A DNA stretch of 64,000 nucleotides from Candidatus Poribacteria bacterium. GTDB taxonomy: Bacteria; Poribacteria; WGA-4E; WGA-3G. The DNA lies in assembly GCA_022820835.1 (NCBI GenBank), contig JAJEET010000134.1:1-64000 (forward strand). Reading direction: 5' to 3'. Position 1 is the first letter of the stretch. Each line of letters begins with the position of its first letter. The notes beneath the pieces were generated by a model. It made no database searches. It saw nothing but the letters and a program-made list of their open reading frames with translations, and had not been told where the DNA came from. Shown here piece after piece: positions 23,428-55,537 of this stretch. Both the position numbers and the translations under genes were made by a program.

Positions 23428-23793
23428 TTATGCGTCAGGCTTTTCGGTGGCTAATCCTTCGGCTTTCCAACCGCGGAAACCACCGGTTAACACTGAAACG
23501 TTTTCATACCCCATGTTTTTTAGCGTGTGTGCGGAGAGTGTCGCACGGGTGCCGCCACCGCAGTAGGTAACGATGTGTGTATCCGCGTCAGGAGCGACCT
23601 CGTCGATATCGAGTTCAATGTAGCCGCGCGGTAGCGAAACGGCATTCGGTAGATGTTCTTCGTCGTAATCCGGTTCGTCCCGAACATCTAAGAGGATAAT
23701 TGACTCTGTTGCCTCTGTGAGTTCATCAGGAGATATGTGTCCAACGTTTTCTCTCGCTTCGGTAAGCAGTTGTTCAAGGGTTTTTAATGGCAT
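23428..23793 (-). CDS. Single-domain rhodanese sulfurtransferase
   Basis: 121 residues from the ATG at 23793, which has GGAGG eight bases upstream; the frame is open further upstream without good signals. The active-site loop is YCGGGTRAT with the persulfide-forming Cys at about 78, and the LLDVRDEPDYDEEHLPNA motif precedes it. The loop length is that of a sulfurtransferase rather than a Cdc25-like phosphatase. Partner genes are not evident. Confidence 0.9.
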   Translation of the reverse strand: MPLKTLEQLLTEARENVGHISPDELTEATESIILLDVRDEPDYDEEHLPNAVSLPRGYIELDIDEVAPDADTHIVTYCGGGTRATLSAHTLKNMGYENVSVLTGGFRGWKAEGLATEKPDA

Positions 23794-23810
23794 AGTTTTC
23801 CTCCATTTAT

Positions 23811-23935
23811 AGTTGTCAGTTGTCGGTTCGGGTTTTCTATGAAAACCCTTTCGGTTGTCGGTTAAGAGGTTTTCGTCTAACAGAACCTTCTTGTAACTGA
23901 AAACTGATAACCGATGACCATACACACTATAGCAT
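23811..23935. repeat. Dispersed GTCAGTTGTCGG / CTGAAAACTGATAAC repeat block
   Basis: A run of related 7-12-mers (TTGTCAGTTGTCGG, CGGTTGTCGGTTAAG, AACTGAAAACTGATAACCG) with an inner palindrome GGGTTTTCTATGAAAACCC. Similar blocks occur near 6383-6441, 8742-8775, 11107-11150, 16655-16725, 42324-42420 and 43655-43755. All are intergenic. Confidence 0.5.
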
Positions 23936-23989
23936 AATGTCCGCAGATTCGTCAACATATTTTGGTTATCATTTTAGGAAGGAGAAGAC

Positions 23990-24433
23990 ATGGAGTTACT
24001 AAAAAAATCGGTTCAATCTGTGCTTGAAAAAGATCGGATTGGGAGTCCAGTGTTCCTGCGTTGTGTCTTACACGTGGCAGACGAGAACGCGAATCTATTG
24101 TCGTCGGTCGGTGTAGTGACGGCACTCGCAAACGAGTGGATTCCTTCAACACCTACCCGGGTCTATGCCCAGGGACACGTAGAAAGTACACAGGTGACGG
24201 TAATGGTTCACTATGTTGGCGGCCAGATGGCACTCTTGAGCGTTGATAGGGTTGATATTGAAACCGCAATTGACATCATGTTGGTCGGGAACAGAGGGGG
24301 CATCTATCACGAAACGCCAATCGGTAGACACTACCAGAACGCCACTCCACTGGAACTCGACGGGACCGGCGAGTTAACAGAAGCTATCGCGCAATCGCTT
24401 GAAAGCGGTCAACCTGTTGAATTGGAGGTTTAA
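23990..24433 (+). CDS. Hypothetical protein paired with a Gfo/Idh/MocA dehydrogenase
   Basis: 147 residues, soluble, preceded by AAGGAGAAGAC. No family was recognised. The sequence alternates hydrophobic strands (VFLRCVLHVADE, TQVTVMVHYVGGQMALLSV) and looks like a compact alpha/beta domain. The stop is two bases before the start of a Gfo/Idh/MocA gene, so the two are cotranscribed and probably cooperate. The role of the small protein is unknown. Confidence 0.7.
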   Translation: MELLKKSVQSVLEKDRIGSPVFLRCVLHVADENANLLSSVGVVTALANEWIPSTPTRVYAQGHVESTQVTVMVHYVGGQMALLSVDRVDIETAIDIMLVGNRGGIYHETPIGRHYQNATPLELDGTGELTEAIAQSLESGQPVELEV

Positions 24434-24435
24434 AC

Positions 24436-25584
24436 ATGCAGCAAAACGGAAAATATGGTGTGCTATTACTCGGTGGATACCGCACGCATCAAGAAAATTA
24501 CGCCTCGCTTTTCGGTCAAGACGAACGCTGCCGATTGGTTGCATTTGCCGATGAACTCGACGCACCACCGGAGCGGGTGGCACTGGCACGCGCACTTGCA
24601 GAATCGTTGAATCTACCCTTCATCCGTGATCTCAACGACGCTTTGGCACGTGAGGATGTACACATCGTCAGTCTCTGCACGGAGGTGGAACGTCGTGGAC
24701 GCGTGGGTGCCAAATGTGCAGAAGCGGGAAAACACGTCTATCTTGATAAACCGATGGCACTCAACCCCGAAGATGCGAACAAGATCGTTGGGACAGTCGC
24801 GAAAAGCGGCGTGCGAACCCAGATGTTTAGCAATATCCATAGTACTTGGGCACGCACGGTTCAGCGTGCATTGGCAAGTGGACGTATCGGCGAACTTCAG
24901 GCAATCCATTGCGATGTCCTGTTCTCTAAAGGGCATCCTGGCACAGCGCCTGTCGGAGAAAAAAGGGTTCAAAGACCTACGCTGGAACGCTATAGTTTCG
25001 TTGAGGCGAAACCTGAGATGTTTGATGTCGGGGTCTATGCGGTGTCTATGGTGAATTGGTTAACGCAGAAACGCGTGCAGCGTGTGTTTGGGGGAACAGG
25101 GAACTTTTTCTTCAAAGAGCATCTCGATTGCGATCTTGAAGATTTCGGTGCTTTGGTTCTGACGTTAGAAGATGACATCACAGCAACAATTGTCAGTGGA
25201 CGCTACGGTTGGCAGAGTCACGCGCAAGGTGGAATTCGGAAGGTACATCTCGTCGGTACCGAGGGAACTTTGACGTTCGATGCTTCAGCGAACCGTCTGG
25301 AAGTTTTTGCCGCTGAACCGGCGTTTGAGCCACCGACCCCGCATCCGCTCGATCCGATGGGGATGTGGAGCAGCACACAGGCAGAGATTGGGATGCGCCC
25401 GAAACAGCAGTGGATAGATGTCGGCAGCGGAGACGATGGACAACGGGAATTCAGCGCGTTTGTAGATTGTATTGAGGACGGTGTAGAGAGCGAAATGAAC
25501 GCCGAATTTGCGGCACATTCCGTGGAGATTATCTGTGCGGGGTATCGTTCTGCTGCAAGCGGGGAGGTTATTAACCTCAACTGA
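24436..25584 (+). CDS. Gfo/Idh/MocA family oxidoreductase (divergent)
   Basis: 382 residues. The CDKPMA-type signature appears as YLDKPMALNPEDA at about residue 109, and the C-terminal domain has VEAKPEMFDVGVYAV. The N-terminal nucleotide loop (LLLGGYRTHQENY) departs from the usual G-x-G-x-x-G/A, so cofactor binding may differ. It is clearly distant from the tandem pair at 2868-5237. It is translationally coupled to the 147-residue protein upstream. A sugar or polyol dehydrogenase role is presumed. Confidence 0.85.
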   Translation: MQQNGKYGVLLLGGYRTHQENYASLFGQDERCRLVAFADELDAPPERVALARALAESLNLPFIRDLNDALAREDVHIVSLCTEVERRGRVGAKCAEAGKHVYLDKPMALNPEDANKIVGTVAKSGVRTQMFSNIHSTWARTVQRALASGRIGELQAIHCDVLFSKGHPGTAPVGEKRVQRPTLERYSFVEAKPEMFDVGVYAVSMVNWLTQKRVQRVFGGTGNFFFKEHLDCDLEDFGALVLTLEDDITATIVSGRYGWQSHAQGGIRKVHLVGTEGTLTFDASANRLEVFAAEPAFEPPTPHPLDPMGMWSSTQAEIGMRPKQQWIDVGSGDDGQREFSAFVDCIEDGVESEMNAEFAAHSVEIICAGYRSAASGEVINLN

Positions 25585-25748: not shown

Positions 25749-26117
25749 CTATGGCAGCGGGGCAATCGTTACGTCACCATCTGGCACGACATCTAAAGTC
25801 AAACGACTTCCGTGAAGCAGTGACATGCCTACTAACGATTCAGTGTCTGATTGTAGAACGTACACCACACGTTCTACGCTGTGCCATATCACTTTCACAC
25901 GATATAAATTAAGCGGAACACTATTCCCATTAGCAAGAAGCACGTTTCGCTTACCAATCAGTGGGAGATTGAGGCGGTTAATTAAATCAATCGGTAGCAT
26001 TAAAAAACCAGTGAAACCTGTATCAATAACTGCCTCAATTTTTACGCGCTGTGCTAAGCTAACTACTTCTAATTCAATAACAGCTTCTCGATCCGCCTTA
26101 ATTTTTCCTATAATCAT
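25749..26117 (-). CDS. Clan AA (retropepsin-like) aspartic protease
   Basis: 122 residues, the size of one retropepsin-type half. The active-site motif is AVIDTGFTGFLML (catalytic Asp at about 32), followed by the flap-like region and the hydrophobic-hydrophobic-Gly element LVGMSLLHG typical of single-domain clan AA proteases that act as homodimers. The start codon overlaps the end of the preceding small gene. Such protease plus small-partner pairs occur in cyanobacteria and other genomes; their function is not settled and a toxin-antitoxin-like role has been considered. No signal peptide is seen. Confidence 0.82.
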   Translation of the reverse strand: MIIGKIKADREAVIELEVVSLAQRVKIEAVIDTGFTGFLMLPIDLINRLNLPLIGKRNVLLANGNSVPLNLYRVKVIWHSVERVVYVLQSDTESLVGMSLLHGSRLTLDVVPDGDVTIAPLP

Positions 26118-26380
26118 TATGTTGGGTCCGAAATTCTAAAGCCAAGTCGATAAGCAGCTCCAAAGCCGATTCGCAGCCCGTAAGTCATAGCCTTCGGATT
26201 CTTAGCAAGCAGACGTTCTGTAGCTTCCATATCCTCATCGGCGATTTCATAGTTTCCCGTTTCAATGTCAACTACAAAAAACTGACCTTTGTGTTGAGCT
26301 TCAAGTTCTTTGCGGTACTGCTGATAGATTTCTTCGCCGCGGGCGGCAATGGTTTCAGAGGTAGCATCAGAATATGACAT
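26117..26380 (-). CDS. Small partner protein of the aspartic protease
   Basis: 87 residues with a helical N-terminus (ATSETIAARGEEIYQQYRKELEAQ) and a short beta region (FFVVDIETGNYEI), ending in a basic/aromatic tail. GAAGGAGAATTACC precedes the ATG. It overlaps the protease start, so the two are translated together. It could be an inhibitor, substrate or antitoxin of the protease; this is inference. A decayed second copy lies on the other side of the protease. Confidence 0.75.
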   Translation of the reverse strand: MSYSDATSETIAARGEEIYQQYRKELEAQHKGQFFVVDIETGNYEIADEDMEATERLLAKNPKAMTYGLRIGFGAAYRLGFRISDPT

Positions 26381-26480: not shown

Positions 26481-28301
26481 CTATCCTCTAACGCCTATCG
26501 CTTCAAGTTGGGCAATCTGTTTTATCCACGATTCACGGATTTCTGGGGAATAATCGCCGGGGAGTAGCGATTTTCGCGTGCAATTGAGAAGTGCTTGTAA
26601 GGTTTGGTATTGTCTTATCGGTCCGATATTCGGTAGGATTCGATCTTCGGCGACGGCAATAATTTCATCGATTGTGAGTTCACCCGTTTCTGAGTTCGTC
26701 TTGATAAGACTGGCGGCTTCAAGGTCGGAACGTAGCGAGGCGAAACTCGCTGCAGAATACGCCTCTGTTACCTTCAAAAGCCGTTCGGTTTCTTCGTCAG
26801 AAAGTGGACTGGAGGAAACTTTCGCAACAGTCCAGCGTAGAAAATCCTCGCGGTCTTCGTCTCTCGGATCAAGTACTGGAACCACCATATCTCCGACTCT
26901 ACCTTCGCGTCGTAGGTCAGGTGATAGGTTATATATCCGGGCAGTCATCAGAAGCCATGTGATATTCCCTCGGAGTTGAGGGTCCGACATCATCGCTTGT
27001 ATCTTTCCCGTCAAACGTCGTTCTGTGCTGTGTGCTTCTCTTCCAACTCCCCCGAACTGCGTATCCGCTTCATCGACAAAGATTAAAACCTTTACCAATG
27101 CCATCAGTAACCGTCGGAGCCGTTCAAAGATGACATCTGTCTGTCCGAACCACATACTTCGGATGTTCTTAAGGACAAGGACAGGTATATCAAGTTGACC
27201 GGCGAGTCCCTCGAAAATAAAAGTTTTTCCGCTGCCGATGGGACCGCAGACGCTCATCCCCGGAATCGCATCGGGTCCGGTTGAGGTGATCCGCGGAATC
27301 AGCTGTGTTTTTAGAAAATCCACTAACTTTCGGTTGCCGACGATGTCCTTTAGACTGTGTGCTGGTTTTTTAAACTCCACAACATCTTCACCCAACTGCG
27401 TCTGAATATATTCGGAGACTTTCTCAATGACATCATCAGGTTGAAGTTTCTCACCGGAATAGCATGCGGAGAGCAACATTTGTCGGAGTGCCTGTATGGA
27501 TAATCCGGCTGTCAGCATCGCGAGTTGTGCTTGTGTACCCCAGAGGTTTAACGGTTTCTCAATCAATTTGGGTGTGTTGTTGAACCACGAAATGAAGTGC
27601 TGACGCTCCGACATTCCCGGGGCAGGGATTTCAACGTTGACGACCTGTGGCAACCTGATAATCCGTGAGTTCAGGAGACTCGGAGATTCTGTGATGAAGA
27701 TGACGGTATCGTTTCCGTTCATGAAATTGGAATCGGAAATCCAGTCTTGAACGATGCTGACCCGATGTCTATCCTGAACGGATAAGCTCCGTATCTCGCC
27801 TTCTGGGAGCAACATATCGGCTGCTTCTATGAGAATAATCAGTTTTTCGGCGAGAAATTTTTTGCCGTCCGTGTTTGTGCTGCGGGAGAGCAGGCAAAAC
27901 TGTCGGAGCAGTTCAAGTGCGAGTGTTGAGCTGCCGATCGCGTCGGTCATGTACTGTGAGAAAGAGACCTTAGAAGGCTCTGTAGCGGATTCAAGGAATC
28001 CGATCACAGATTCGCGTCCGCGCGAGGTGCTGGCAGGTGCATCTATACCGGTATCAGATTCGGTTATGCCTCGCCATCGGTTGAAGGCGCGCTCAACCTT
28101 TTCGCGTTCCGCCTCCTGAGCGAAGCGTATGGGGCCGTTGAGTTCATAAACGATCAGGATGAACCCATGTATATCCCAGCTGTGCGTTAAAAAGGGGACG
28201 ATCGGAACATAATCCGTTCTCTCTTCTTCCTTTAAAAAGAAGAGGTCGTGAATATTTCCGGACAAGACAAGACTCCGAGATGTCCCAGAATTAATGAGCA
28301 T
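26481..28301 (-). CDS. AAA+ ATPase linked to PspA
   Basis: 606 residues. The C-terminal AAA+ module is complete: Walker A GPIGSGKT (353-360), Walker B VLIFVDEAD (404-412) and arginines in SPDLRREGRVG (about 464-468) as candidate fingers. The N-terminal 300 residues look like a second, degenerate AAA module: LVLSGNIHDLFF and LIILIEAADMLLP are present, but there is no Walker A. It is not PspF, because no sigma-54 contact motif or HTH is seen. It follows a PspA/IM30 gene by 112 bases. PspA belongs to the ESCRT-III superfamily, so a Vps4-like remodelling ATPase is an attractive inference. Confidence 0.82.
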   Translation of the reverse strand: MLINSGTSRSLVLSGNIHDLFFLKEEERTDYVPIVPFLTHSWDIHGFILIVYELNGPIRFAQEAEREKVERAFNRWRGITESDTGIDAPASTSRGRESVIGFLESATEPSKVSFSQYMTDAIGSSTLALELLRQFCLLSRSTNTDGKKFLAEKLIILIEAADMLLPEGEIRSLSVQDRHRVSIVQDWISDSNFMNGNDTVIFITESPSLLNSRIIRLPQVVNVEIPAPGMSERQHFISWFNNTPKLIEKPLNLWGTQAQLAMLTAGLSIQALRQMLLSACYSGEKLQPDDVIEKVSEYIQTQLGEDVVEFKKPAHSLKDIVGNRKLVDFLKTQLIPRITSTGPDAIPGMSVCGPIGSGKTFIFEGLAGQLDIPVLVLKNIRSMWFGQTDVIFERLRRLLMALVKVLIFVDEADTQFGGVGREAHSTERRLTGKIQAMMSDPQLRGNITWLLMTARIYNLSPDLRREGRVGDMVVPVLDPRDEDREDFLRWTVAKVSSSPLSDEETERLLKVTEAYSAASFASLRSDLEAASLIKTNSETGELTIDEIIAVAEDRILPNIGPIRQYQTLQALLNCTRKSLLPGDYSPEIRESWIKQIAQLEAIGVRG

Positions 28302-28413
28302 CCCGGCTTCTGATCGGAATGTATAGGTTGGGCTTTTAACAGGTATGAGTTGTCGCCCCCTTCAGTTTTAGGTAGCAAACTTACGTCGCTGCGAAACACT
28401 TGTAAGTGGTAGA

Positions 28414-29256
28414 TTAGAGCGGCAGTTCAGAATCAGAATCCTCTGCCTTCTTCGCGGGTTCTGCTTCTGTTTCCGTCTGTGTATCTGTTTGCTGTGCGCC
28501 GAAGATCAAAGCATCAAATTCGTCGGAGGTTGAAGAGGATCGCGCGGCTGCGAGGAATTCCTGTTCTTCAGACCTTGAATCCGTACCCGCCAACTCCTGT
28601 GCGACCACTGAACGTCCTTTCGCTTTTTCACGGATTTCGCGCATCCGCGACAATTCAGCGGAGGTACCATCCATGCTGATACCCGAAAGCATATCGGCGA
28701 TCTCTTCTTGCTCTTTTGCAGTAATGAGATCAGCGACCGCTTCAGACTGCTCATTCTTAATTTGTTCTAAATCGCGATGTAGGCTGGTGATCTGGATTTT
28801 ATGGTTGTCAATACCGGCTTGCGCTTCCTCAATTTCGCCTTCTAACTCCGAAATTTGTCTGGTTTTGTCTTCCAGGTTGGAATTGAATTCTTGGTAAGCC
28901 GTAACACAACGTACATATTCAGCATGCTGTTTGACTTCTTCGGGTGCCATTCCGTCTTCTTGCAGGGCCGCAGCGGTCTGCTGTGCCTTAGCGATTGCCC
29001 CAGATTTCAATTCTTCCAAATTTTCGACTTCGTCGGTAAGGTTCTTTACCGTGGATTTCTTACGTTCCACGAGTGCTATAAGTTGACCGATCGCATTCTT
29101 ATAGCGATTAATATTCCCCTTTTTGTCAGCGATGATGTCTTCGTAAGCCCCTCTAACGGCTTCCGGGTCTTCCATCATTCGATCCGCTGTTTCATGTGCG
29201 CGCCCCGACAGTGTGTACCAGATCGCCTTGAAAAATCGTGTGAATCCATTTGCCAT
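28414..29256 (-). CDS. pspA: PspA/IM30 (Vipp1) family membrane-stress protein
   Basis: 280 residues, longer than E. coli PspA (222). The start ANGFTRFFKAIWYTLSGRAHETADRM-type region is an amphipathic helix 0 followed by helix 1. Long coiled-coil helices follow (about 60-185), and the C-terminal 70 residues form an acidic, Glu/Asp/Thr-rich tail (TDTQTETEAEPAKKAED). PspA family proteins assemble on stressed membranes in ESCRT-III-like polymers. AGGAGA precedes the ATG. The AAA+ gene downstream is probably cotranscribed. Confidence 0.9.
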   Translation of the reverse strand: MANGFTRFFKAIWYTLSGRAHETADRMMEDPEAVRGAYEDIIADKKGNINRYKNAIGQLIALVERKKSTVKNLTDEVENLEELKSGAIAKAQQTAAALQEDGMAPEEVKQHAEYVRCVTAYQEFNSNLEDKTRQISELEGEIEEAQAGIDNHKIQITSLHRDLEQIKNEQSEAVADLITAKEQEEIADMLSGISMDGTSAELSRMREIREKAKGRSVVAQELAGTDSRSEEQEFLAAARSSSTSDEFDALIFGAQQTDTQTETEAEPAKKAEDSDSELPL

Positions 29257-29455: not shown

Positions 29456-31459
29456 TTAGACATCTATAACAGGTTTCATATTCCAGAGGAGGACGGTGCC
29501 GTCATAGCTGCTACTTGCTAAGCGTTCACCATCCTTTGAAAAAGCGAGGTTTTGAACATCTGAGGTATGCCCCCAAAAAGTATGTATGTTTTTCCCAGTG
29601 GCTACGTCCCATAAACGGATGGAGACCTTTTCTGTTTTTTTCCACCAAGAACCGGAGGCGAGATACCGTCCACATGGCGAAAACGCCACGACACCGACAC
29701 GGGAGCAACTCTCAGGTAGAATCATCCCCATACACGGTTCCAAAGTTGCTGCATCCCACACACGAATGTCACCGAATAATCCACCAGCCAAAAAAGTACC
29801 GCAAGGTGAAAACGCAATTGAATACTGCTCTCGCACCCTTGACTGCGGTTTGCAACGGCGTTGGATTTCGCGTGAATCCCCTTTGTAGAGGGAAGCATCT
29901 GCTAAGGTGACCTCTGTAGAAAGTGAGCCAAGCTGTTCGCCACTCGTAACGTCCCAAAGAAAGATGCTCGCCCTGTCGGCAGTAACGAATTGCTGTCCAT
30001 TGGGGTGAAAGGCTGCTGTCCGAAGCGGCTCTGCGTGCCCTGTAAATGCATGCTGCTTTTCCCAACGGAGGGTGTCCCACACAACAAGGTTTCCACTTGT
30101 ATCTCCGCTGACGATGTGTTCCCCCGATGGCGAAAACACCACGGTGGTGATCGAAGCCTGATGTTCGGCGAGTTCTGCTATTCGGGTTCCGGAGGTGATG
30201 TTCCAGACTTCAAGCGTTTGTCCACTTTCTCCGATAAGAGCCAACAATTCTTCACTGGCAACCAGTGCACACCTTTTACCTCTGCTTTTTGGTGGGATCG
30301 GGGGAGGGAGCACCTGTTTCTGAACAACATTCCAGAAAACGACCCTATCATTCCAATATTTGCAAACCAACCTCTTGCCCGATTGATAAAAAAATAGGGA
30401 GTCAGGTATCCCATTAGGTGTTGTGTGTGGTGCTACTGCGGCAGGGGCACCTGCACGCCACACGCGGATCTCGCTGTGTGTGGCAATTGCGAACTGCTGT
30501 CCATCCGTCGAAAGACATTCTGCCCGATGGTCTATCCTATGTTTTCCTTGATGTTCAATGGTATCAAGTTTTTCACCTTGGGCCGCATCCCACATCACTA
30601 CCTTGTCTTCATAAACATCAGCAACCCGTAAAGCACCATCAGGGGAATAGGCGAGAAGCACCCGAGTTCCACCGTAGTCTGTGTAAGTCGTCTCCAAAGT
30701 CTCTTTATCAATATTCCACACTTGCACCTCAATATTCTCCCGTGTCGTTGGATCCTGAAGACTCGCAGCAAGAAACTGACCACAGGGTGAAAAGACGAGA
30801 TCATGCAGATGTCCTGATTCACACAGATGACGGTCTAAAACTAGCCAAGCGAAACGTTCTTTCGTTTTTAGGTTTTGGACCGTAAGGGTGCACGAACCAG
30901 TAGAATAAGCGAGCAGCTGCCCATCGGGTGAAAAATAGAGCGGAAAACGAGTCGGATATTTTTCACCTTCCTTCGATGTGATTCTCACTTTGAAACTTGC
31001 GACGTGGTAGCCGTTTTTCGCACTCCAGATGTAAACATCGCCGTATTCGCGGCCAGATGCGGCGATGTATTGGCTATCCGGTGAAAAGGTGAGGTGGGAG
31101 GTGCCGTCGTGCCAGCCTTGTATCTTCGCCACGCGCTGCTGGGTCTCTATTTCTCGGACATTGATGATGCCGTCCCCATTGCTGGTTGCGATCCATTGCC
31201 CATCAGGTGAAAGAACGACGTTAGAAATCAGGCCGCGTTCGGTTTCAAGTAGTGTGACGGGCTGCATCGTGTCAAGTTCATACATCCATATCCCGACCCG
31301 AGTGCCAACAGCGAGGAACGCGTTATCCGGTGAAAACGTCATGCCAAATATGAGTCCTTGTCCGAATCGGGCAATTGCGCCATCGGGGAGTGCCCAAGTT
31401 GTCTCATTACTGTTTGTCTGGACAGATTGTGTGGTTATCTGTGATCTTCGATTTTCCAT
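29456..31459 (-). CDS. WD40-repeat protein (copy B)
   Basis: 667 residues from the ATG at 31459 (GGAGG seven bases upstream; a TTG one codon earlier is less likely). The chain is filled with WD40 units such as VVFSPSGEHIVSGDTSGNLVVWD and VAFSPCGRYLASGSW, ending HTSDVQNLAFSKDGERLASSSYDG. That is enough for two seven-bladed propellers or one large one. No enzymatic domain or signal peptide was found, so it is a cytoplasmic interaction scaffold. It shares its N-terminal segment (ENRR...TTWALPDGAIARFGQG) with the adjacent upstream paralogue. The partner is unknown. Confidence 0.88.
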   Translation of the reverse strand: MENRRSQITTQSVQTNSNETTWALPDGAIARFGQGLIFGMTFSPDNAFLAVGTRVGIWMYELDTMQPVTLLETERGLISNVVLSPDGQWIATSNGDGIINVREIETQQRVAKIQGWHDGTSHLTFSPDSQYIAASGREYGDVYIWSAKNGYHVASFKVRITSKEGEKYPTRFPLYFSPDGQLLAYSTGSCTLTVQNLKTKERFAWLVLDRHLCESGHLHDLVFSPCGQFLAASLQDPTTRENIEVQVWNIDKETLETTYTDYGGTRVLLAYSPDGALRVADVYEDKVVMWDAAQGEKLDTIEHQGKHRIDHRAECLSTDGQQFAIATHSEIRVWRAGAPAAVAPHTTPNGIPDSLFFYQSGKRLVCKYWNDRVVFWNVVQKQVLPPPIPPKSRGKRCALVASEELLALIGESGQTLEVWNITSGTRIAELAEHQASITTVVFSPSGEHIVSGDTSGNLVVWDTLRWEKQHAFTGHAEPLRTAAFHPNGQQFVTADRASIFLWDVTSGEQLGSLSTEVTLADASLYKGDSREIQRRCKPQSRVREQYSIAFSPCGTFLAGGLFGDIRVWDAATLEPCMGMILPESCSRVGVVAFSPCGRYLASGSWWKKTEKVSIRLWDVATGKNIHTFWGHTSDVQNLAFSKDGERLASSSYDGTVLLWNMKPVIDV

Positions 31460-31494
31460 CAAATACCTCCGATTTTACCCTGGCAAGTAATATC

Positions 31495-33534
31495 TTAAGA
31501 ACCTATGAACGGTTTCATATCCCAAAGGAGAACGGTGCCGTCAAAACTTCCGCTCGCTAAGAGCGTGCCGTCTGGTGAAAAGGCGACATCTTGAACATCA
31601 GAGGCGTGTCCCCAGAAGGTGTGGATGTTTTCACCAGTAGCGACCTTCCACAATTGGATAGGCACTCTATCTGTCCCGCACCACCACGAACCGACAGCGA
31701 GATAATCACTGTCAGGCGAAAAAGCAAGTGCGAAAGGTCTCTTACTGGTTTCAGGCAGCCGTATTACCATACGTATTTGTGAGGTATTTGCGTCCCACAG
31801 TATAACTTCACCTTCGCGCCCACAGGCAATAACGGTCCCGCAGGGAGAAAATGCAATAACATCAAGGACTGGTTCCAGATGTCGCTGACGCTTAGGATCT
31901 TCCGCTTCCTTGGTTCCTTTTGACTCACCTTTGTACAGAGGTGGAACGTCTAAACTTTCTGGCAAAGGAAGTGTGGCAAGATGTTTACCACTTTCAACAT
32001 CCCAGATGCGAGCTTTATCATTGTAAGAAATAGCGGCGACCTGCTTACCATCAGGGTGAAACGCTACTCTCTTATCTCCCATTCGCCATCTCGCTTCTAC
32101 TACGCGTTCATTTTCATCTGGCGTAAGCGAATGTTGTTTTTCCCAATTCTCAACATCCCATACAAAGAGTTCGCCTTCTGTTCCAGCACTGACAAGATAT
32201 TTACCGATGGGTGAAAAACTAAACGAAATTACATGACGTTCATGTTCGGTGAGTTCAGCGACTAATGTTTCGGAATCAATGTTCCAGATTTTGATGTTCG
32301 CGTCCCCTGTTTCAGCTGCTAACAGTTCATTGAACGGACATAGAGTAGCTGTCCTTCGTAAAGAGGATCGTTCGGTCAGGGATGGGAATATCCGCTGCGT
32401 TTTCCTGTTTGCGACATCCCAGAAAATTTTACCCGTTGTTCCCCAGTGACTGCTGACCAATGTCTTGCTGTCCTGCGAGAATACCACCGAATAGGCACTC
32501 GGTTTATATTCGGGAAATAAGGCAATTGTAGAAGGGGATCCAGTTTTCCATAGCTGCAGATTGCCGCGTGTGTTGGCAATTGCGAATTGGGTTCCATCGG
32601 TTGAAAAACGCGCCGCAGTAGTCGTCGTTCCCCGGGAGTCAAAGGTGTCCAACTTTTCTTGCTGCGATGCATCCCAAATCTCCACCTTGTTTTCATAGAT
32701 ATTGGCGATCCGCAGTGTGCCCTCAGGCGCATAAGCCAATCTTATCCGATCTCCTTCATAAGTAGTAGGTGGTGTTACAAGGGATTCGTTGTGAATATCC
32801 GAGACTCGTACTTCGTTGTCTAAGGTCGCGGTGGCAAGGTACTGTCCGCAAGGAGAAAAGATGGCGGAATGCACCGGTGCTGCGTGTTCAGTGAGATGAG
32901 CAATCTGTTTGCCGGTGTCTATGTCTGAAAGCGTGATAGTGTCTATTGCAGTCACATACGCAAGTTGGTTGCTGACGGGTGAAAATGAGATAGGAAAGCA
33001 CCTGTCGCCGTAATATCCCCTTCGGTAATCCTTTTTTTCTGCATCTTCAATGGTGCAGCTCATAATAGGCGTGTCAATGTTTGTCCCCCATTTGTAGACG
33101 GCACTATGTGCGAAACCGGATGTGGCAAGATATTGTCCGTCCGACGAAAAGTGGAGATGTAAAAGGCTATTAAAGTTTCGCGTACTTCCCCAATCTATTT
33201 TCGTAATGCATTGTCCGTTTTGTGTGTCCCATATTTTAACAATCCCGTCTTGGTCGCCAGTAGCGATCCATCGCATATCATGTGAGAAGGTCGCGACATT
33301 GAACATCCCGCGTTCGGTGCCCCACAAAGCACGAGGGATCATTGTTGCCGTGTCATATATCCAGAATCCGATTTTGGTTGCAACGGCAAGATATGCCCCA
33401 TCGCTCGAATACTCAACACCAAGTAGTACCCCCTGTCCCAATCTACCGATTGCACCTTCAGGGAGTTCCCAAGTTGTTACATCTGTGTCGTCAGGTGGTC
33501 TGAGCGCGGGGATCATGGTGCGCCTGTTTTCCAT
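31495..33534 (-). CDS. WD40-repeat protein (copy A)
   Basis: 679 residues, with AGGAG before the ATG. The same layout as copy B: an N-terminal cap (DVTTWELPEGAIGRLGQG) followed by WD40 blades up to GHASDVQDVAFSPDGTLLASGS near the C-terminus. The two genes are 35 bases apart and are an old tandem duplication; many blades differ while the cap and the last blades are conserved. A consensus promoter lies about 165 bases upstream. Function is unknown beyond protein binding. Confidence 0.88.
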   Translation of the reverse strand: MENRRTMIPALRPPDDTDVTTWELPEGAIGRLGQGVLLGVEYSSDGAYLAVATKIGFWIYDTATMIPRALWGTERGMFNVATFSHDMRWIATGDQDGIVKIWDTQNGQCITKIDWGSTRNFNSLLHLHFSSDGQYLATSGFAHSAVYKWGTNIDTPIMSCTIEDAEKKDYRRGYYGDRCFPISFSPVSNQLAYVTAIDTITLSDIDTGKQIAHLTEHAAPVHSAIFSPCGQYLATATLDNEVRVSDIHNESLVTPPTTYEGDRIRLAYAPEGTLRIANIYENKVEIWDASQQEKLDTFDSRGTTTTAARFSTDGTQFAIANTRGNLQLWKTGSPSTIALFPEYKPSAYSVVFSQDSKTLVSSHWGTTGKIFWDVANRKTQRIFPSLTERSSLRRTATLCPFNELLAAETGDANIKIWNIDSETLVAELTEHERHVISFSFSPIGKYLVSAGTEGELFVWDVENWEKQHSLTPDENERVVEARWRMGDKRVAFHPDGKQVAAISYNDKARIWDVESGKHLATLPLPESLDVPPLYKGESKGTKEAEDPKRQRHLEPVLDVIAFSPCGTVIACGREGEVILWDANTSQIRMVIRLPETSKRPFALAFSPDSDYLAVGSWWCGTDRVPIQLWKVATGENIHTFWGHASDVQDVAFSPDGTLLASGSFDGTVLLWDMKPFIGS

Positions 33535-49849: not shown

Positions 49850-51790
49850 TCATGTTTCCAAATGCCGCGGATGTAACCTTCGCACGTTTCCTTCGCGAAC
49901 CGTAAGATTCTGCGTATCGCAGTACTCTAAAAAAGGCACGGCATACTTTCGCGAAGTCTCGGCGGTTTCTCGGAACTCCGCGACGGTTATCGTCTCATTT
50001 TCACGAAGGTACACAGTTAATGTGTCACTGATTTCTTCAAATTTTGCTTTATGAATGAAAAAATTCTCTGCTATCTTAACAAACCGTCCCAAGTTTAATA
50101 GCGCGTAAAATGTAGATTCAAGGACTTTTGGTGTATATTCTGGTAGCAGTGTGCTGAGTTGATTGAGCGTCGGCGTGTTCATACCCGCTTCCAAGAACAG
50201 TTGCTCTAATGTCTCTTTCGCAGTCTCCTCCTCTTGAGAAAACTGGATTTCGTGAGCGGCTAGCCGGAGTAAGTTTCCATCCTTAACGAGTTGGCGTTCC
50301 TTGATAAGTTGGTTCGCGAGTTTCTCAAAACTCTGTTCATCGAGGCTTAATTTATAACGAAGTTGTGCTGAATTTTGTCCAGCAAGGAGCGGCTGTGCCT
50401 CGTGAAACGCCGTAAGCGCGTCTACTATCTTCGCTTTAACCGTAGATACTCGCTCCGCGTCGGAGACGAGGGTTTCTCTACCAGATTCATCCCAGCGGAC
50501 AATTTTTCCTTCTGTCTTGAGACTGTCTAAGATGGTCTTCACATCCGTTTGCGAATGCGGAAGATAGTAATAGAGAAACGATTCCGGTACACAGACAGTT
50601 TCGCTATTTGCCAGGACGATATTGACGATCTGTGCGTCATCGGCTTCTTCCCATTGTGCTAAAGTCGCGATGGTTTCCGGCGTGAACCGCTTATGCTTCG
50701 GTGCAAATGGGTTGATGACCTCTCCGCCGCCGACTGTATGTTGTGCCGAAAAATCGCGTATGATAATTCGGTCGCCTCTAAACGTCAAAATCGGTTGCTC
50801 TAAACGGAGTTGGACCTGTACTTTATCTCCTGGGAGGATCGCCTCGTCAACCAGCAGAATCAATCGGCAAAATATCTCGCGGGTGCCGAGATACGCTCGG
50901 AAACGGCTCCAATGCTCAATGATTCTCGGAAACGAAGATAACACCTGTAAAGACACGTCTATGTTGTCTGTCACTTGTGAATAGTCAATAGGACAGAGGA
51001 CATCGCCGCGCTGGATGTCCTGAGCAGAGGTCCCAGAAAGATTTAAGGCTGTTCTCTGCCCCGCATAAGCAATGGAGGCGGGTTCATTGTGTACCTGTAT
51101 CCCGCGGACGCGAACAACATCGCCTTGTGGCAGCAGCACCATCCGCTGCTCTCGATTAATGGAGCCTCCGATAAGCGTACCTGTTACAACAACACCGAAG
51201 CCTTGCACAGTAAAAACGCGGTCAACATATAGCCTCGGAATCCCGTCATTTTCTTCTGATTTTGTAGCGAGTGTCACCTGCTCAAGAATCGTCTGCTTTA
51301 AGGTATCAATACCTGCACCGGTTATTGCGGAGACACTCACAGTCGGTATACCTTCGAGACTTGTGCCGACGAGCATCTCTTGTGTCATTTCAGTTGCCTC
51401 AGCCAATTCGCCAGCGGTTGCCAAGTCAGATTTCGTCATGACGAGGATACCGTTTGAGATTCCGAGCAGGTCCAAAATTGCCAAATGTTCGAGCGTCTGT
51501 TCCTGAACGCCTTCCTTTGCATCAACGACAAAAAGGACTATATCCATACCGTATGCGCCGGAGAGCATACTGCGGATGAATTTTTCGTGTCCTGGTACGT
51601 CAACGATACCGGCACGTGAGTTATCGGGTAGATCGAAATAAGCGAAACCCAATTCAATAGACATGCCGCGATCCCGTTCTTCCTTGAGCCGGTCTGTCTC
51701 CATACCGGTGAGTGTACCGACGAGTGCCGTTTTCCCGTGGTCAACATGTCCTGCTGTTCCGATGATAACGTGTCGTTGATCTTGATGCAT
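49850..51790 (-). CDS. selB: Selenocysteine-specific elongation factor
   Basis: 646 residues. G domain: [11 protein letters not shown] (11-21), DVPGHEKF (64-71) and MTKSD (about 118-122). Domains II and III follow, then a C-terminal region of winged helices (about 380-646) that bind the SECIS hairpin in other bacteria. It delivers Sec-tRNA to UGA codons. Together with the adjacent tRNA-Sec, the organism should make selenoproteins. selA and selD are not in this window, and no selenoprotein gene was recognised here. Confidence 0.95.
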
Positions 51791-51826
51791 ACGTTAATTC
51801 CGAGGGTTTACTCAAGCTTTCACATC

Positions 51827-51946
51827 AGGATTTACGCAATTTTGACTGTAACCCGTTCTGTTAGATGAGATTTCTCCGAAAACACGGCGTTCTTGTGTCC
51901 CAAACTGGAAAGTTTGTGACACAAAATAGCAGCGTGCGTAAGTCCT
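51827..51946. repeat. TIR element, ACTTACGCA family (120 bp)
   Basis: Ends AGGATTTACGCA / TGCGTAAGTCCT (one mismatch). An inner hairpin has CAAACT...AGTTTG arms. It lies between selB and the first lepB and shares most of its left half with the copy at 56974. Confidence 0.8.
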
Positions 51947-51951
51947 ACACA

Positions 51952-52740
51952 TTAAGGGTTTGCGTGAATGAGTTTGCCGATTCGATTAAATCTGATATTT
52001 CCTATCAGTTTCCAAACTTCCCATATTTTTGCTGGCATCGCGTCCTCCGCTGGGTTCACAGCAAAAGACCAATATACCATAAACGCTTGCCCCTTGATGT
52101 CATTGACATCTACGGGTCCCCAAGAGCGGCTATCGCTACTCGAATCTCGGTTGTCGCCCATTGCGAAGACCTTACCTTTCGGGATCGTAAACGGCTTTCC
52201 GTCAGGAAACTTGCGTCTAAATTGACTTGAGGTTAAGGTATAATCAGAAAATTCCTCAGTATCTGGTAGATACTCCGGTTGACGGAACGGTGGAAAATCG
52301 CCTCTCCTAAAGTGGCTGAAAGTTACATGTTTCGTATAATGCTTGTCATCAACGGCTTCGCCGTTCACATAGAGTGTGTTGCCACGTGTTTCGATCGTGT
52401 CGCCCTCAACGGCTACGATGCGTTTGATGAAATTTCGTTTTCGGTCATGCGGTGGCAGGAAAACGAAAACGTCCCCACGGGTAGGCTTATGGAAATCGAG
52501 AACCTTTATTTTCGTGCCGGGGATCGTAATGCCGTAGATAAATTTACAAACCAGAATTCTATCCCCAACAAGAAGCGTGTCCTCCATTGAACCAGACGGA
52601 ATTTTGAACGCCTCAACAACGAAAGGACGTATGAACCCGAAAACGAGAATGAGTGCTACAACGGCGACTTGCGTGTATTCCCATACAATGGTTCTCCGAA
52701 ATTTTTGCCATTTGGACAATTGGGTTTCGTTATCATTCAT
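51952..52740 (-). CDS. lepB: Signal peptidase I (copy A)
   Basis: 262 residues. One N-terminal membrane segment (VAVVALILVFGFIRPFVV) is followed by IPSGSMEDTL with the nucleophile S51 and the general base K106 in NFIKRIVAVEGD. The C-terminal box MGDNRDSSSDSRSWGPV is intact. It cleaves signal peptides of Sec- and Tat-exported proteins outside the membrane. A second lepB gene lies 46 bases upstream, with many blocks in common. Confidence 0.95.
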   Translation of the reverse strand: MNDNETQLSKWQKFRRTIVWEYTQVAVVALILVFGFIRPFVVEAFKIPSGSMEDTLLVGDRILVCKFIYGITIPGTKIKVLDFHKPTRGDVFVFLPPHDRKRNFIKRIVAVEGDTIETRGNTLYVNGEAVDDKHYTKHVTFSHFRRGDFPPFRQPEYLPDTEEFSDYTLTSSQFRRKFPDGKPFTIPKGKVFAMGDNRDSSSDSRSWGPVDVNDIKGQAFMVYWSFAVNPAEDAMPAKIWEVWKLIGNIRFNRIGKLIHANP

Positions 52741-52786
52741 GTTATTATAAAACCTCTAAAGATAAAAGCGTTCTCCTTTTTGCCGT

Positions 52787-53572
52787 CTAATTTTTCTTGA
52801 ATGAATCTGATTGTGAGCGGATAAGTTTACCGATTCGATTAAAACGTATATTGTCCACCAATTTCCAAACCTCCCAGAACTTTGCAGGACGATCAGCGAT
52901 CGACCACCAAATCATGAAAGCCTGTCCTTTAATGTCATCTACAGACACTGGCCCCCAAGTTCGACTATCGCTGCTCAGGTCGCGATTATCCCCCATAGCG
53001 AAAACCGTTCCTTTCGGAACAACAAACGGCTTTCCGTCAGGAAACTTGCGTCGAAATTGACTTGCTGTCAAAGTATAATCGTCAAACCCCTCACCTGTCG
53101 GTATATATTCTGGACTTCGGAATGGTGGAAAATCTCTCTTAACGTGGCTGAATTTCAGGTGTTTTGTGTAGGTGCTATCATCAACGATTTCACCGTTTAC
53201 ATAAAGCGTATCACCACGCGTTTCAACGGTATCCCCTTCAATGGCTACAATGCGCTTGATAAAATGTCGCTCGTCATGTGACGGAATAAAGACGAAAACA
53301 TCGCCGCGTGCAGGTTGATGAACATCAAAGATTCTTATATCTGTGCCGGGGATCTTAACGCCATAGACAAACTTACACACGAAAATATGGTCACCGACGA
53401 GCAGTGTATCCTCCATCGAGCCAGAGGGAATTCTATACGCTTCAACTACAAAAGGGCGGACAAAACCGAACATGAGAACCAGTAAAACGACAATAGGCAG
53501 TGCCTGCTCTCGGAACCATTTTTTTAATTTTTCTTGTTTCGATAGTGTTGTTTTGTTCATTTGGGGGCACAT
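52787..53572 (-). CDS. lepB: Signal peptidase I (copy B)
   Basis: 261 residues as opened here (257 if the ATG at 53560 is used; neither has a strong ribosome site). A membrane segment (LPIVVLLVLMFGFVRPFVV) is followed by IPSGSMEDTL (S52), HFIKRIVAIEGD (K106) and MGDNRDLSSDSRTWGPV. The catalytic dyad is complete, so both copies should be active. Divergence from copy A is spread along the chain, including the substrate-facing YTKHLKFSHVKRDFPPF region. Confidence 0.94.
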   Translation of the reverse strand: MCPQMNKTTLSKQEKLKKWFREQALPIVVLLVLMFGFVRPFVVEAYRIPSGSMEDTLLVGDHIFVCKFVYGVKIPGTDIRIFDVHQPARGDVFVFIPSHDERHFIKRIVAIEGDTVETRGDTLYVNGEIVDDSTYTKHLKFSHVKRDFPPFRSPEYIPTGEGFDDYTLTASQFRRKFPDGKPFVVPKGTVFAMGDNRDLSSDSRTWGPVSVDDIKGQAFMIWWSIADRPAKFWEVWKLVDNIRFNRIGKLIRSQSDSFKKN

Positions 53573-53593
53573 CCATTATGTTGTTATTTAGAT

Positions 53594-53712
53594 AGGACTT
53601 ACGCAAATTGGGCAAAAATCGGATATTTAGACGCAAAAGCGGTAATTTTTATCCTGTAAACCCCCTAAATCCCCCTTATCAGGGGGACTTTAAGGCGAAA
53701 TGCGTAAGTCCT
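53594..53712. repeat. TIR element, ACTTACGCA family (119 bp)
   Basis: Perfect AGGACTTACGCA / TGCGTAAGTCCT ends, flanked by TA on both sides of the pair. The interior differs from other copies (a Pyr-rich CCCCCTAAATCCCCC tract with GGGGG after it). It lies between lepA and lepB. Confidence 0.8.
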
Positions 53713-53731
53713 ATGTTATTTAGATTTGGTA

Positions 53732-55537
53732 TTATTCATCGGTTGCGAGCATTGCCGTGAATGCTTCCTGCGGCACGTCAACTCTACCGATCTGCTTGAG
53801 GCGTTTCTTACCCTCTTTCTGGTTCTCCAACAACTTCCGTTTTCGCGATACATCACCGCCGTAGCATTTCGCTGTAACATTTTTTCGGAGTGCGCGAACG
53901 GTTTCGCGGGCGACAATTTTGTTGCCGATCGCCGCTTGAACCGGTACCTCAAACATCTGACGCGGTATCAACTCCTTCAATTTGGTCACCAATGCTTTTC
54001 CTCGCGTTTCTGCTGTGTCACGCGGTAGAATCGTCGAAAGTGCATCCACAGGGTTCCCGTTAAGAAGTATATCGAGTTTCACTAATTTTTCAGGTTTATA
54101 GGCACCGATGTCGTATTCGAGCGATCCATATCCACGCGTCAGAGACTTTAGTTTCGGGTAGAAATCCGTTAGCATTTCACTCAATGGCAGTTCATAGAGC
54201 AATTGCACACGGCTCGCGTCCAATTGGTTCATCCGTTTATATACACCCCGCCGCTTCTGACAAAGTTCCATCGCATTGCCGATATACTCGCGCGGCACGA
54301 TAATGTCAATATTGACATACGGTTCCTCAATATGTTCAATATTATTCGGTTCGGGGAGGTGTGCGGGGTTATCAACGGAGATATAGTCCCCTGTTTTTAG
54401 GCAGACACGGTACATCACACTCGGTGCTGTCCGGACGAGTTCAAGTCCAAATTCACGTTCAAGGCGTTCATGGATGATCTCCATGTGGAGCAATCCGAGA
54501 AAACCGCACCGAAATCCGAATCCGAGGGCGACAGAGGTTTCGGGTTCAAAGTTGAAAGAGGAATCGTTGAGACGGAGTTTCTCGAGTGCCTCTCGCAATG
54601 CCGGAAACTGGTTTGTATCTGCAGGATACAGACCGCTGAACACAAGTGGTTTCATTTCACGGTAGCCGGGCAGCGGTTCAGTCGTCGGTTTTTTATGGTG
54701 TGTGATTGTATCGCCAATTTTCGCGTTGTCTATATCCCGGATGCCTGCGATGAGATATCCGACTGCCCCTGTGTCTAACCCCATTGTTGGCTGCATCTCT
54801 GGCGTAAAGATACCGACCTCTTCCACCTCATAGGCGCGTCTCGTCTTCATGAGTTGGATTTTATCACCCGTTTTGAGGCTGCCCTCGAATATTCGGGTGT
54901 ACATGATGACACCACGATAGTTATCGTAAACGGAATCGAGTACAAGTGCCTTCAACGGTGCCTCTGTTTCGCCGTCAGGTGCGGGGATACGATTAACGAC
55001 TGCTTCCAATATCGCGGGGATACCGATCCCCATTTTTGCGCTCACAAGAAGTGCGTCGTCTGCGGGGATGCCGATAACTTCCTCTATCTGTCGTTTCGCT
55101 TCGTCAGGACGGGATGTCGGTAAATCTATCTTATTGATGACCGGGATAATTTCGAGGTCGTTGTCGATTGCAAGATAAGCGTTCGCCAAAGTTTGTGCTT
55201 CAACGCCTTGGGCGGCATCAACAATTAGAATAGCACCTTCACACGCCGCGAGGCTTCGTGAGACCTCGTAGGTAAAATCGACGTGTCCAGGCGTATCAAT
55301 CAAGTTAAGTTCGTACCGGTTTCCGTTGCTGGCAGGATAGTGTATTTTAACGGCAGTGGCTTTAATAGTAATACCGCGTTCACGCTCCAGGTCCATCAGG
55401 TCAAGCACCTGTGCACGCATCTCGCGCTCGGCGAGCGTGTTCGTATGCTCAATAAGCCGGTCACTCAGTGTGCTTTTCCCGTGGTCAATGTGCCCTAAAA
55501 TACAGAAATTCCGTATGTTTTCAAGATTCGTTGACAT
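53732..55537 (-). CDS. lepA: Translation factor LepA (EF4)
   Basis: 601 residues, the standard length. GHIDHGKST (G1), [15 protein letters not shown] (G3) and NKIDLP (G4) are present. The LepA-specific C-terminal domain ends ...[18 protein letters not shown]. It is a ribosome-bound GTPase that promotes assembly and back-translocation under stress. The predicted -10 box ends only about ten bases before the ATG and no Shine-Dalgarno is seen, so the message may be leaderless. lepB follows, as is common. Confidence 0.96.

Follow-up and report, generated by a model that had tools for sequence, protein, structure and literature searches.

The window, by which is meant the whole stretch of 64,000 nucleotides analysed here, comes from a poribacterium, a sponge-symbiont bacterium, and carries on its minus strand, at 26481-29256, the gene for a diverged PspA/IM30 protein of 280 residues followed by that for a tandem AAA ATPase. 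The first-pass annotation had set PspA and an AAA+ ATPase side by side at this place, and both open reading frames were found there. From the end of the PspA gene it is 67 nt to a probable ATA start of the ATPase gene and 112 nt to the called ATG, from which the ATPase gene as called spans 26481-28301 (minus strand). The features of the pair are as follows.

28414..29256, minus strand: PspA/IM30-family (ESCRT-III superfamily) protein, 280 aa, with alpha0, a long hairpin, alpha4, alpha5 and a disordered tail
28417..28500, minus strand: disordered acidic C-terminal tail of PspA, residues 253-280 (pLDDT <50), with a variable linker
28417..28434, minus strand: C-terminal motif DSELPL, a candidate ATPase handle (LP invariant in a 33-sequence alignment)
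28356..28362, minus strand: Shine-Dalgarno sequence AAGGGGG, 9 nt before the ATA, the same in the genus rows but for L078 and L102
28344..28346, minus strand: probable non-canonical ATPase start ATA (aligned codon ATA in 39, ATC in 10 and ATG in 2 of 51)
26481..28346, minus strand: tandem AAA ATPase, 621 aa from the ATA (606 aa from the ATG at 28301)
28239..28259, minus strand: GNIHDLF of D1, in the place of a P-loop (inactive module)
27219..27248, minus strand: Walker A of D2, CGPIGSGKTF (three G and K in 38/38)
27144..27152, minus strand: pore loop 1 of D2, WFG (W and G in 38/38; the middle residue F in 36 and Y in 2)
27069..27074, minus strand: Walker B Asp-Glu of D2 (38/38)
26898..26912, minus strand: arginine fingers of D2, RR.GR (38/38; degenerate in the remote relatives L043 and L044)

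A scan for promoters and terminators gave no excess over background (4 hits where 4.0 were expected, and 4 where 3.3 were). Upstream of PspA and on the same strand lie two neighbouring WD40-repeat proteins (29456-33534), the first assigned by Pfam and the second by likeness. Elsewhere in the window, an 87-aa ORF (26117-26380) directly precedes a candidate small retropepsin-like aspartyl protease (25749-26117; PF13650, E=4e-4, under the cut-off), the two looking like a two-gene unit, and other conserved neighbours of the ATPase exist, such as that at 23990-25584 (plus strand).

Domains and predicted folds

Against PF04012, the window PspA scores 31.9 bits (E=1.3e-7; Pfam cut-off 33.9); a relative (L082) passes that cut-off with 34.3 bits, and two others (L112, L117) give no PF04012 match at E 0.01. 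The predicted model, with a mean pLDDT of 76, has helices at residues 3-15, 31-100, 112-193, 198-240 and 243-252, which is the alpha0, hairpin and alpha4-5 architecture of PspA/IM30 in a PspA-like order. When this fold is searched with Foldseek, the top seven matches are all PspA/Vipp1 proteins, at weak E values of 1.3e-3 to 2.3e-2, and a profile search of the PDB with the PspA alignment gives marginal Vipp1/PspA matches alone (E 0.008-0.01). VIA-align returns mostly generic coiled coils in tied rows, with PspA/Vipp1 not among its 50 rows and the ESCRT-III Snf7 core at rank 18 (Z 10.8), no better than unrelated rows. We read the window protein as a diverged member of the PspA/IM30 family. Another contig studied, C150 of genome G000, holds three tandem PspA_IM30 proteins (51504-54789; L037 6935-10796), of which the one scanned joins an RDD membrane domain to PspA and the other two start alike; related genomes have PspA_IM30 proteins similar in length to this RDD-PspA, the scan having covered the one G000 protein.

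The model of the ATPase (mean pLDDT 84) consists of two AAA modules beginning near the N-terminus, with no separate N-terminal domain. The modules were described in the first-pass annotation as one active and one degenerate, and this is what the motifs indicate: D1 has GNIHDLF instead of a P-loop, and D2 has GPIGSGKT, VDEAD and RR.GR, i.e. the Walker A, the Walker B and the SRH with arginine fingers of a classical AAA module (38-sequence alignment). PF00004 is the sole family over its cut-off and matches the second half only (E=4.7e-15). A PspF-like regulator was rejected, in keeping with the earlier claim, since the sigma-54 activator domain and the Fis HTH are both absent. At the position that we take, from alignment to Cdc48, to be that of the canonical sensor-1 Asn, D2 has Ala in 38/38 aligned ATPases, so its hydrolysis could be slow, a point that would count against a Vps4-like reading. 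Two remote relatives of the ATPase (L043 3997-5727 and L044 1158-2900) keep the Walker motifs and have lost the RR.GR fingers.

Over both halves, the ATPase model aligns with two-ring AAA proteins, the best full-length matches being Drg1 (Z 22.4, 474 residues, rmsd 8.0), Rix7, NVL, Pex1/Pex6 (Z 20.5, 491 residues, rmsd 4.5, sequence identity about 16%) and p97/Cdc48, all of which are general remodelers. Such matches would also suit a membrane-protein quality-control unfoldase or extractase for which PspA serves as a membrane adaptor or regulator, bound through its LP motif and unthreaded (compare PspA holding PspF), and a title within the reference list of PMC11746142 does term PspA an AAA+ adaptor. 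We regard this as unlikely, as no client is known and as it is PspA that stays immediately next to the ATPase in the window's genus. For D2 alone, the alignment with yeast Vps4 reaches Z 21.6 (rmsd 3.5 over 267 residues); it fits Vps4, spastin, fidgetin and proteasomal ATPases almost equally well, so that no Vps4 function can be singled out from the fold. Membership of the Vps4 family itself was rejected, given that the N-terminal MIT domain is absent from the model (one helix, then the AAA-like module D1), that there are two AAA modules and that the NCBIfam CdvC model scores 29.7 bits against a cut-off of 650. The original suggestion of a Vps4-like partner therefore stands as to mechanism, made plausible by the WFG pore loop, the arginine fingers and the D2-Vps4 match (tied with other AAA proteins), and falls if taken to mean a Vps4 proper.

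Genomic linkage and the wider operon

A scan of GTDB genomes yielded 220 relatives of the ATPase, and the linkage counts concern the nearer of these, the best 80 of 220, made up of 51 poribacterial loci and 29 others that include Verrucomicrobia, Sumerlaeota, Hydrogenedentota, Planctomycetes, Acidobacteria and Deltaproteobacteria. The poribacterial ATPase loci nearest the window are 81-92% identical. PspA was detected in 66 of the best 80 loci and was on the same strand and upstream of the ATPase in 66/66. When only loci with more than 5 kb upstream are counted (best 80 of 220), a same-strand upstream PspA is present in 58/61, from several phyla, so that the linkage, whose absence from other genomes would have told against the first-pass proposal, proved to be conserved. 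The three exceptions (L110, L113 and L136) have an LPE-tailed PspA farther off in the genome, on another contig in L110 and L136 and about 11 kb upstream on the same contig in L113. In the window's genus, the ATPase was found in 35/35 genomes searched, with PspA adjoining it in 35/35. The ATPase of G023 is spread over two contigs with a stop in the matched frame, and the gap between PspA and ATPase at L080 (G018) is about 1.46 kb.

Co-occurrence was examined around the Verrucomicrobium G071. Since a class-wide sample contained the ATPase in only 1/113 genomes, G071 itself, a sample of the order was used, in which 16 of 146 genomes have the ATPase, 16 have the AAA-linked type of PspA and 13 have both (Fisher p=2.3e-13, an optimistic value in that the genomes are related and of unstated completeness, G071 was picked for the pair, G077 and G082 were known beforehand and the G299 ATPase is a fragment). 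Three genomes have the ATPase only and three PspA only, which may reflect incomplete assembly. The linkage of PspA and ATPase is far beyond chance. Paralogous AAA proteins of 640-870 aa (L038, L045-L048, L052-L056), in whose loci the PspA query found no PspA, were set aside. One of them (L038 6153-8084; G000:C39) is a second AAA protein, of 644 aa, in the same genome as a PspA-linked ATPase to which it is related, with no PspA found within its 15-kb stretch.

Outside Poribacteria, 18/29 loci combine the AAA gene with genes for a PBP(-OmpA), a 2TM/coiled-coil protein, PspA, a permease and an ABC ATPase, the pair usually belonging to an operon of the type PBP-OmpA/2TM/PspA/PBP/permease/ABC/AAA; several of the remaining 11 loci are cut by contig ends, and TM segments were judged by eye. 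These transporter genes, beside so many members, could be the real client of the ATPase. Their recurrence in the 18 loci, together with the PBP/OmpA proteins that remain on another contig of the window genome, fits an ATPase acting in the assembly or recycling of the linked envelope complex (solute-binding/OmpA/ABC), with PspA as the scaffold of that complex. That explanation is nonetheless quite unlikely, for a permease occurs in 1/51 poribacterial loci (L101) and in 0/10 genomes of the window's genus searched, yet the ATPase stays.

In the window's genus, PspA and AAA remain together and the transporter is gone. The 2TM protein and a protein of ~600 aa are present in the same 6/10 genus genomes and absent from the other 4/10, and the single-contig genomes G010 and G022 are without either. 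In the window genome, the genes for these two proteins are on another contig (L179), where their neighbours encode two PBP/OmpA-type proteins and a VWA protein, and the operon seems to be split in two. The gene for the ~600-aa poribacterial protein (L082 8090-9910, L085 5447-7246, L095 8066-9745, L179 7747-9525) lies between PspA and ATPase or, in the window genome, beside the 2TM gene, and the two proteins scanned had no Pfam match. In other poribacterial genera, between one and three additional PspA-like genes, all tail-less, lie upstream; the short, LP-less paralogues at L082 6324-7010, L085 2334-4403 and L086 6340-7092, one to three of them upstream of a tailed PspA, are possible co-polymer subunits.

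The PspA tail and the probable ATPase start codon

A long acidic PspA tail was named in the first-pass annotation as the possible point of contact with the ATPase. The tail is there (residues 253-280, pLDDT under 50), and its linker varies in sequence and length ahead of an end motif whose L278 and P279 are invariant (33-sequence alignment). Among the motif-bearing PspAs of Poribacteria, 43/47 end in DSELP[LVI] and the others have ESELP, NSELP or ESKLP; non-poribacterial AAA-linked PspAs end in ..LPE. Within the genus the final position is L, V or I, and the difference between E and L/V/I looks, from the sequences, like one lineage change. LP stands at -3/-2 in 69/72 PspAs nearest the ATPase (67/70 without two duplicates), the exceptions being three ATPase-linked PspAs (L041, L042 and L044) whose ATPases are about 30% identical. 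The LP tail is found in 0/17 tandem extra PspA copies and in 0/31 PspA_IM30 proteins of other types, the latter controls coming from genomes of the same, single class (33 rows less two misread). In 30 codon-aligned genus sequences, pairwise comparison of the DSELP codons gives 906 synonymous differences and 0 non-synonymous ones, against 2345 and 2045 in the 20 columns before them and 34723 and 13546 in the rest of PspA. On these codon counts, the short motif that closes the disordered linker is under strong selection, as expected of a docking motif.

Because the last residues of the tail are strongly conserved and, among the proteins examined, occur in AAA-linked PspA only, the contact-point guess gains support for the tip of an otherwise variable tail, and we infer that the ATPase reads this motif. 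Alternatively, LP may characterise this clade of PspAs without serving as an ATPase handle. C-terminal protease tags are common and the poribacterial tails end hydrophobic, so LP might also be imagined as a degron or a PDZ/protease docking tag unread by the neighbouring ATPase, which is very unlikely considering that the LPE ending outside Poribacteria is unlike a hydrophobic PDZ ligand and that, within operons, it is the PspA copy closest to the ATPase that has the tail, the extra copies having none. A conserved LP end on AAA-linked PspA, mostly DSELP[LVI] or else LPE, would be a new feature of these proteins.

Homology of the ATPase does not stop at the ATG at 28301 but continues for 15 codons upstream, as far as the ATA at 28344-28346, and the alignment of the start across 51 poribacterial sequences (the window and 50 loci) has ATA or ATC in 49/51. 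The Shine-Dalgarno sequence before the aligned codon is mostly AAGGGGG or GGAGG, with L078 and L102 one base off the AAGGGGG of the genus. In 41/49 of the ATA/ATC sequences there is no ATG, GTG or TTG from the upstream stop to the ATA/ATC codon, and 8 of those 41 have no ATG, GTG or TTG at the ATG position as well, CTG being there in 3/8. Orthologous neighbours in the genus that share a start have ATG (PspA in 28/28), with GTG in one gene (2/2); the genes at 23428-23958 and 29456-31462, whose query start is not common to their orthologues, are uninformative on start usage. On the alignment, the start of the ATPase gene is most likely the ATA, which lies 45 nt before the called ATG. In Staphylococcus aureus, AUA and AUU starts with an extended Shine-Dalgarno sequence are reported to express at about 10% of the AUG level in poor medium, and one non-canonical start at up to 30% in rich medium (PMC13009471). 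By analogy with this low output, the cell probably makes far less of the ATPase than of PspA. The conserved ATA/ATC start behind a strong Shine-Dalgarno sequence, the second new feature, suggests throttled synthesis and yields a checkable prediction on the PspA:ATPase stoichiometry.

Relation to ESCRT-III/Vps4 and other AAA systems

We lean towards reading the pair as a bacterial analogue of ESCRT-III/Vps4, whose ATPase would act on PspA as a remodeler that is Vps4-like and not of the Vps4 family. PspA would polymerise on the inner membrane, and the ATPase, as a two-tier AAA ring with D1 inactive and D2 active, would capture the flexible tail by its terminal LP motif and thread PspA through the D2 pore, with subunits being removed or exchanged and the polymer reset. 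The weak ATA start behind its strong ribosome-binding site would keep the ATPase scarce relative to the PspA polymer. In the wider operon, remodeling might be coupled to an envelope sensor made up of solute-binding/OmpA proteins, the 2TM protein and the ABC transporter, and in the window's genus the PspA/ATPase pair would have become the core. More tentative, and falling somewhat short of probable, is the broader claim of a complete bacterial ESCRT-III/Vps4-like machine that has its own LP handle and a two-ring AAA protein, is AUA/AUC-throttled in Poribacteria, is reduced to two adjacent genes in one genus and elsewhere has tail-less paralogues and possibly mixed polymers.

That PspA-AAA+ linkages had been noted in surveys, as the first-pass annotation stated, is in print with the ESCRT parallel in Ravi 2024 (PMC11237479), section 18 of which describes PspA beside a two-AAA protein with an inactive N-terminal copy, and which also presents long PspA/AAA/ABC/permease/PBPB-OmpA operons with the ESCRT analogy. 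The window pair has this same arrangement, its PspA being adjacent to a two-AAA protein with the N-terminal copy inactive, and is like the published system in gene pair, module layout, accessory genes and proposed ESCRT parallel, a likeness drawn from the description and not from its accessions AEY64321.1 and OGG56892.1. Section 18 mentions no tail motif, reduced two-gene form or start codon; neither the tail motif nor the ATA start came up in the passages of Ravi 2024, Liu 2021 and PMC11746142 consulted or in the literature searched, where no paper joining Poribacteria and PspA was found either. For Liu 2021 it is unclear whether bacterial polymers of PspA/Vipp1 are served by a Vps4-like ATPase, and PspF in the Vps4 role is left open there; the 2024 PspA structure paper (PMC11746142) suggests chaperones or PspF, and in Makarova 2024 systems that combine vps4 with ESCRT-III are limited to archaea and eukaryotes. 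Since the pair is a minimal two-protein system with a deletable six-residue motif, the question of a Vps4-like ATPase becomes directly testable.

The PspA/PspF system likewise partners PspA with an AAA+ protein, but PspF is a sigma-54 activator, and no PspF domain is present in the window ATPase. Pex1/Pex6 and other two-ring AAA proteins share the tandem AAA modules, and D1 of Pex1/Pex6 is inactive, whereas sequence identity is about 16% and there is no peroxisomal context here. ESCRT-III/Vps4 and CdvB/CdvC pair a helical-hairpin polymer former bearing a C-terminal motif for the ATPase with a classical AAA protein bearing a W-x-G pore loop. The window pair, as read from its sequence, is alike in hairpin polymer-former family, C-terminal motif and W-x-G pore loop, and unlike in that its ATPase has two AAA modules and lacks MIT and its PspA has another tail motif, so that tail recognition, compared with that of ESCRT-III/Vps4, is likely convergent.
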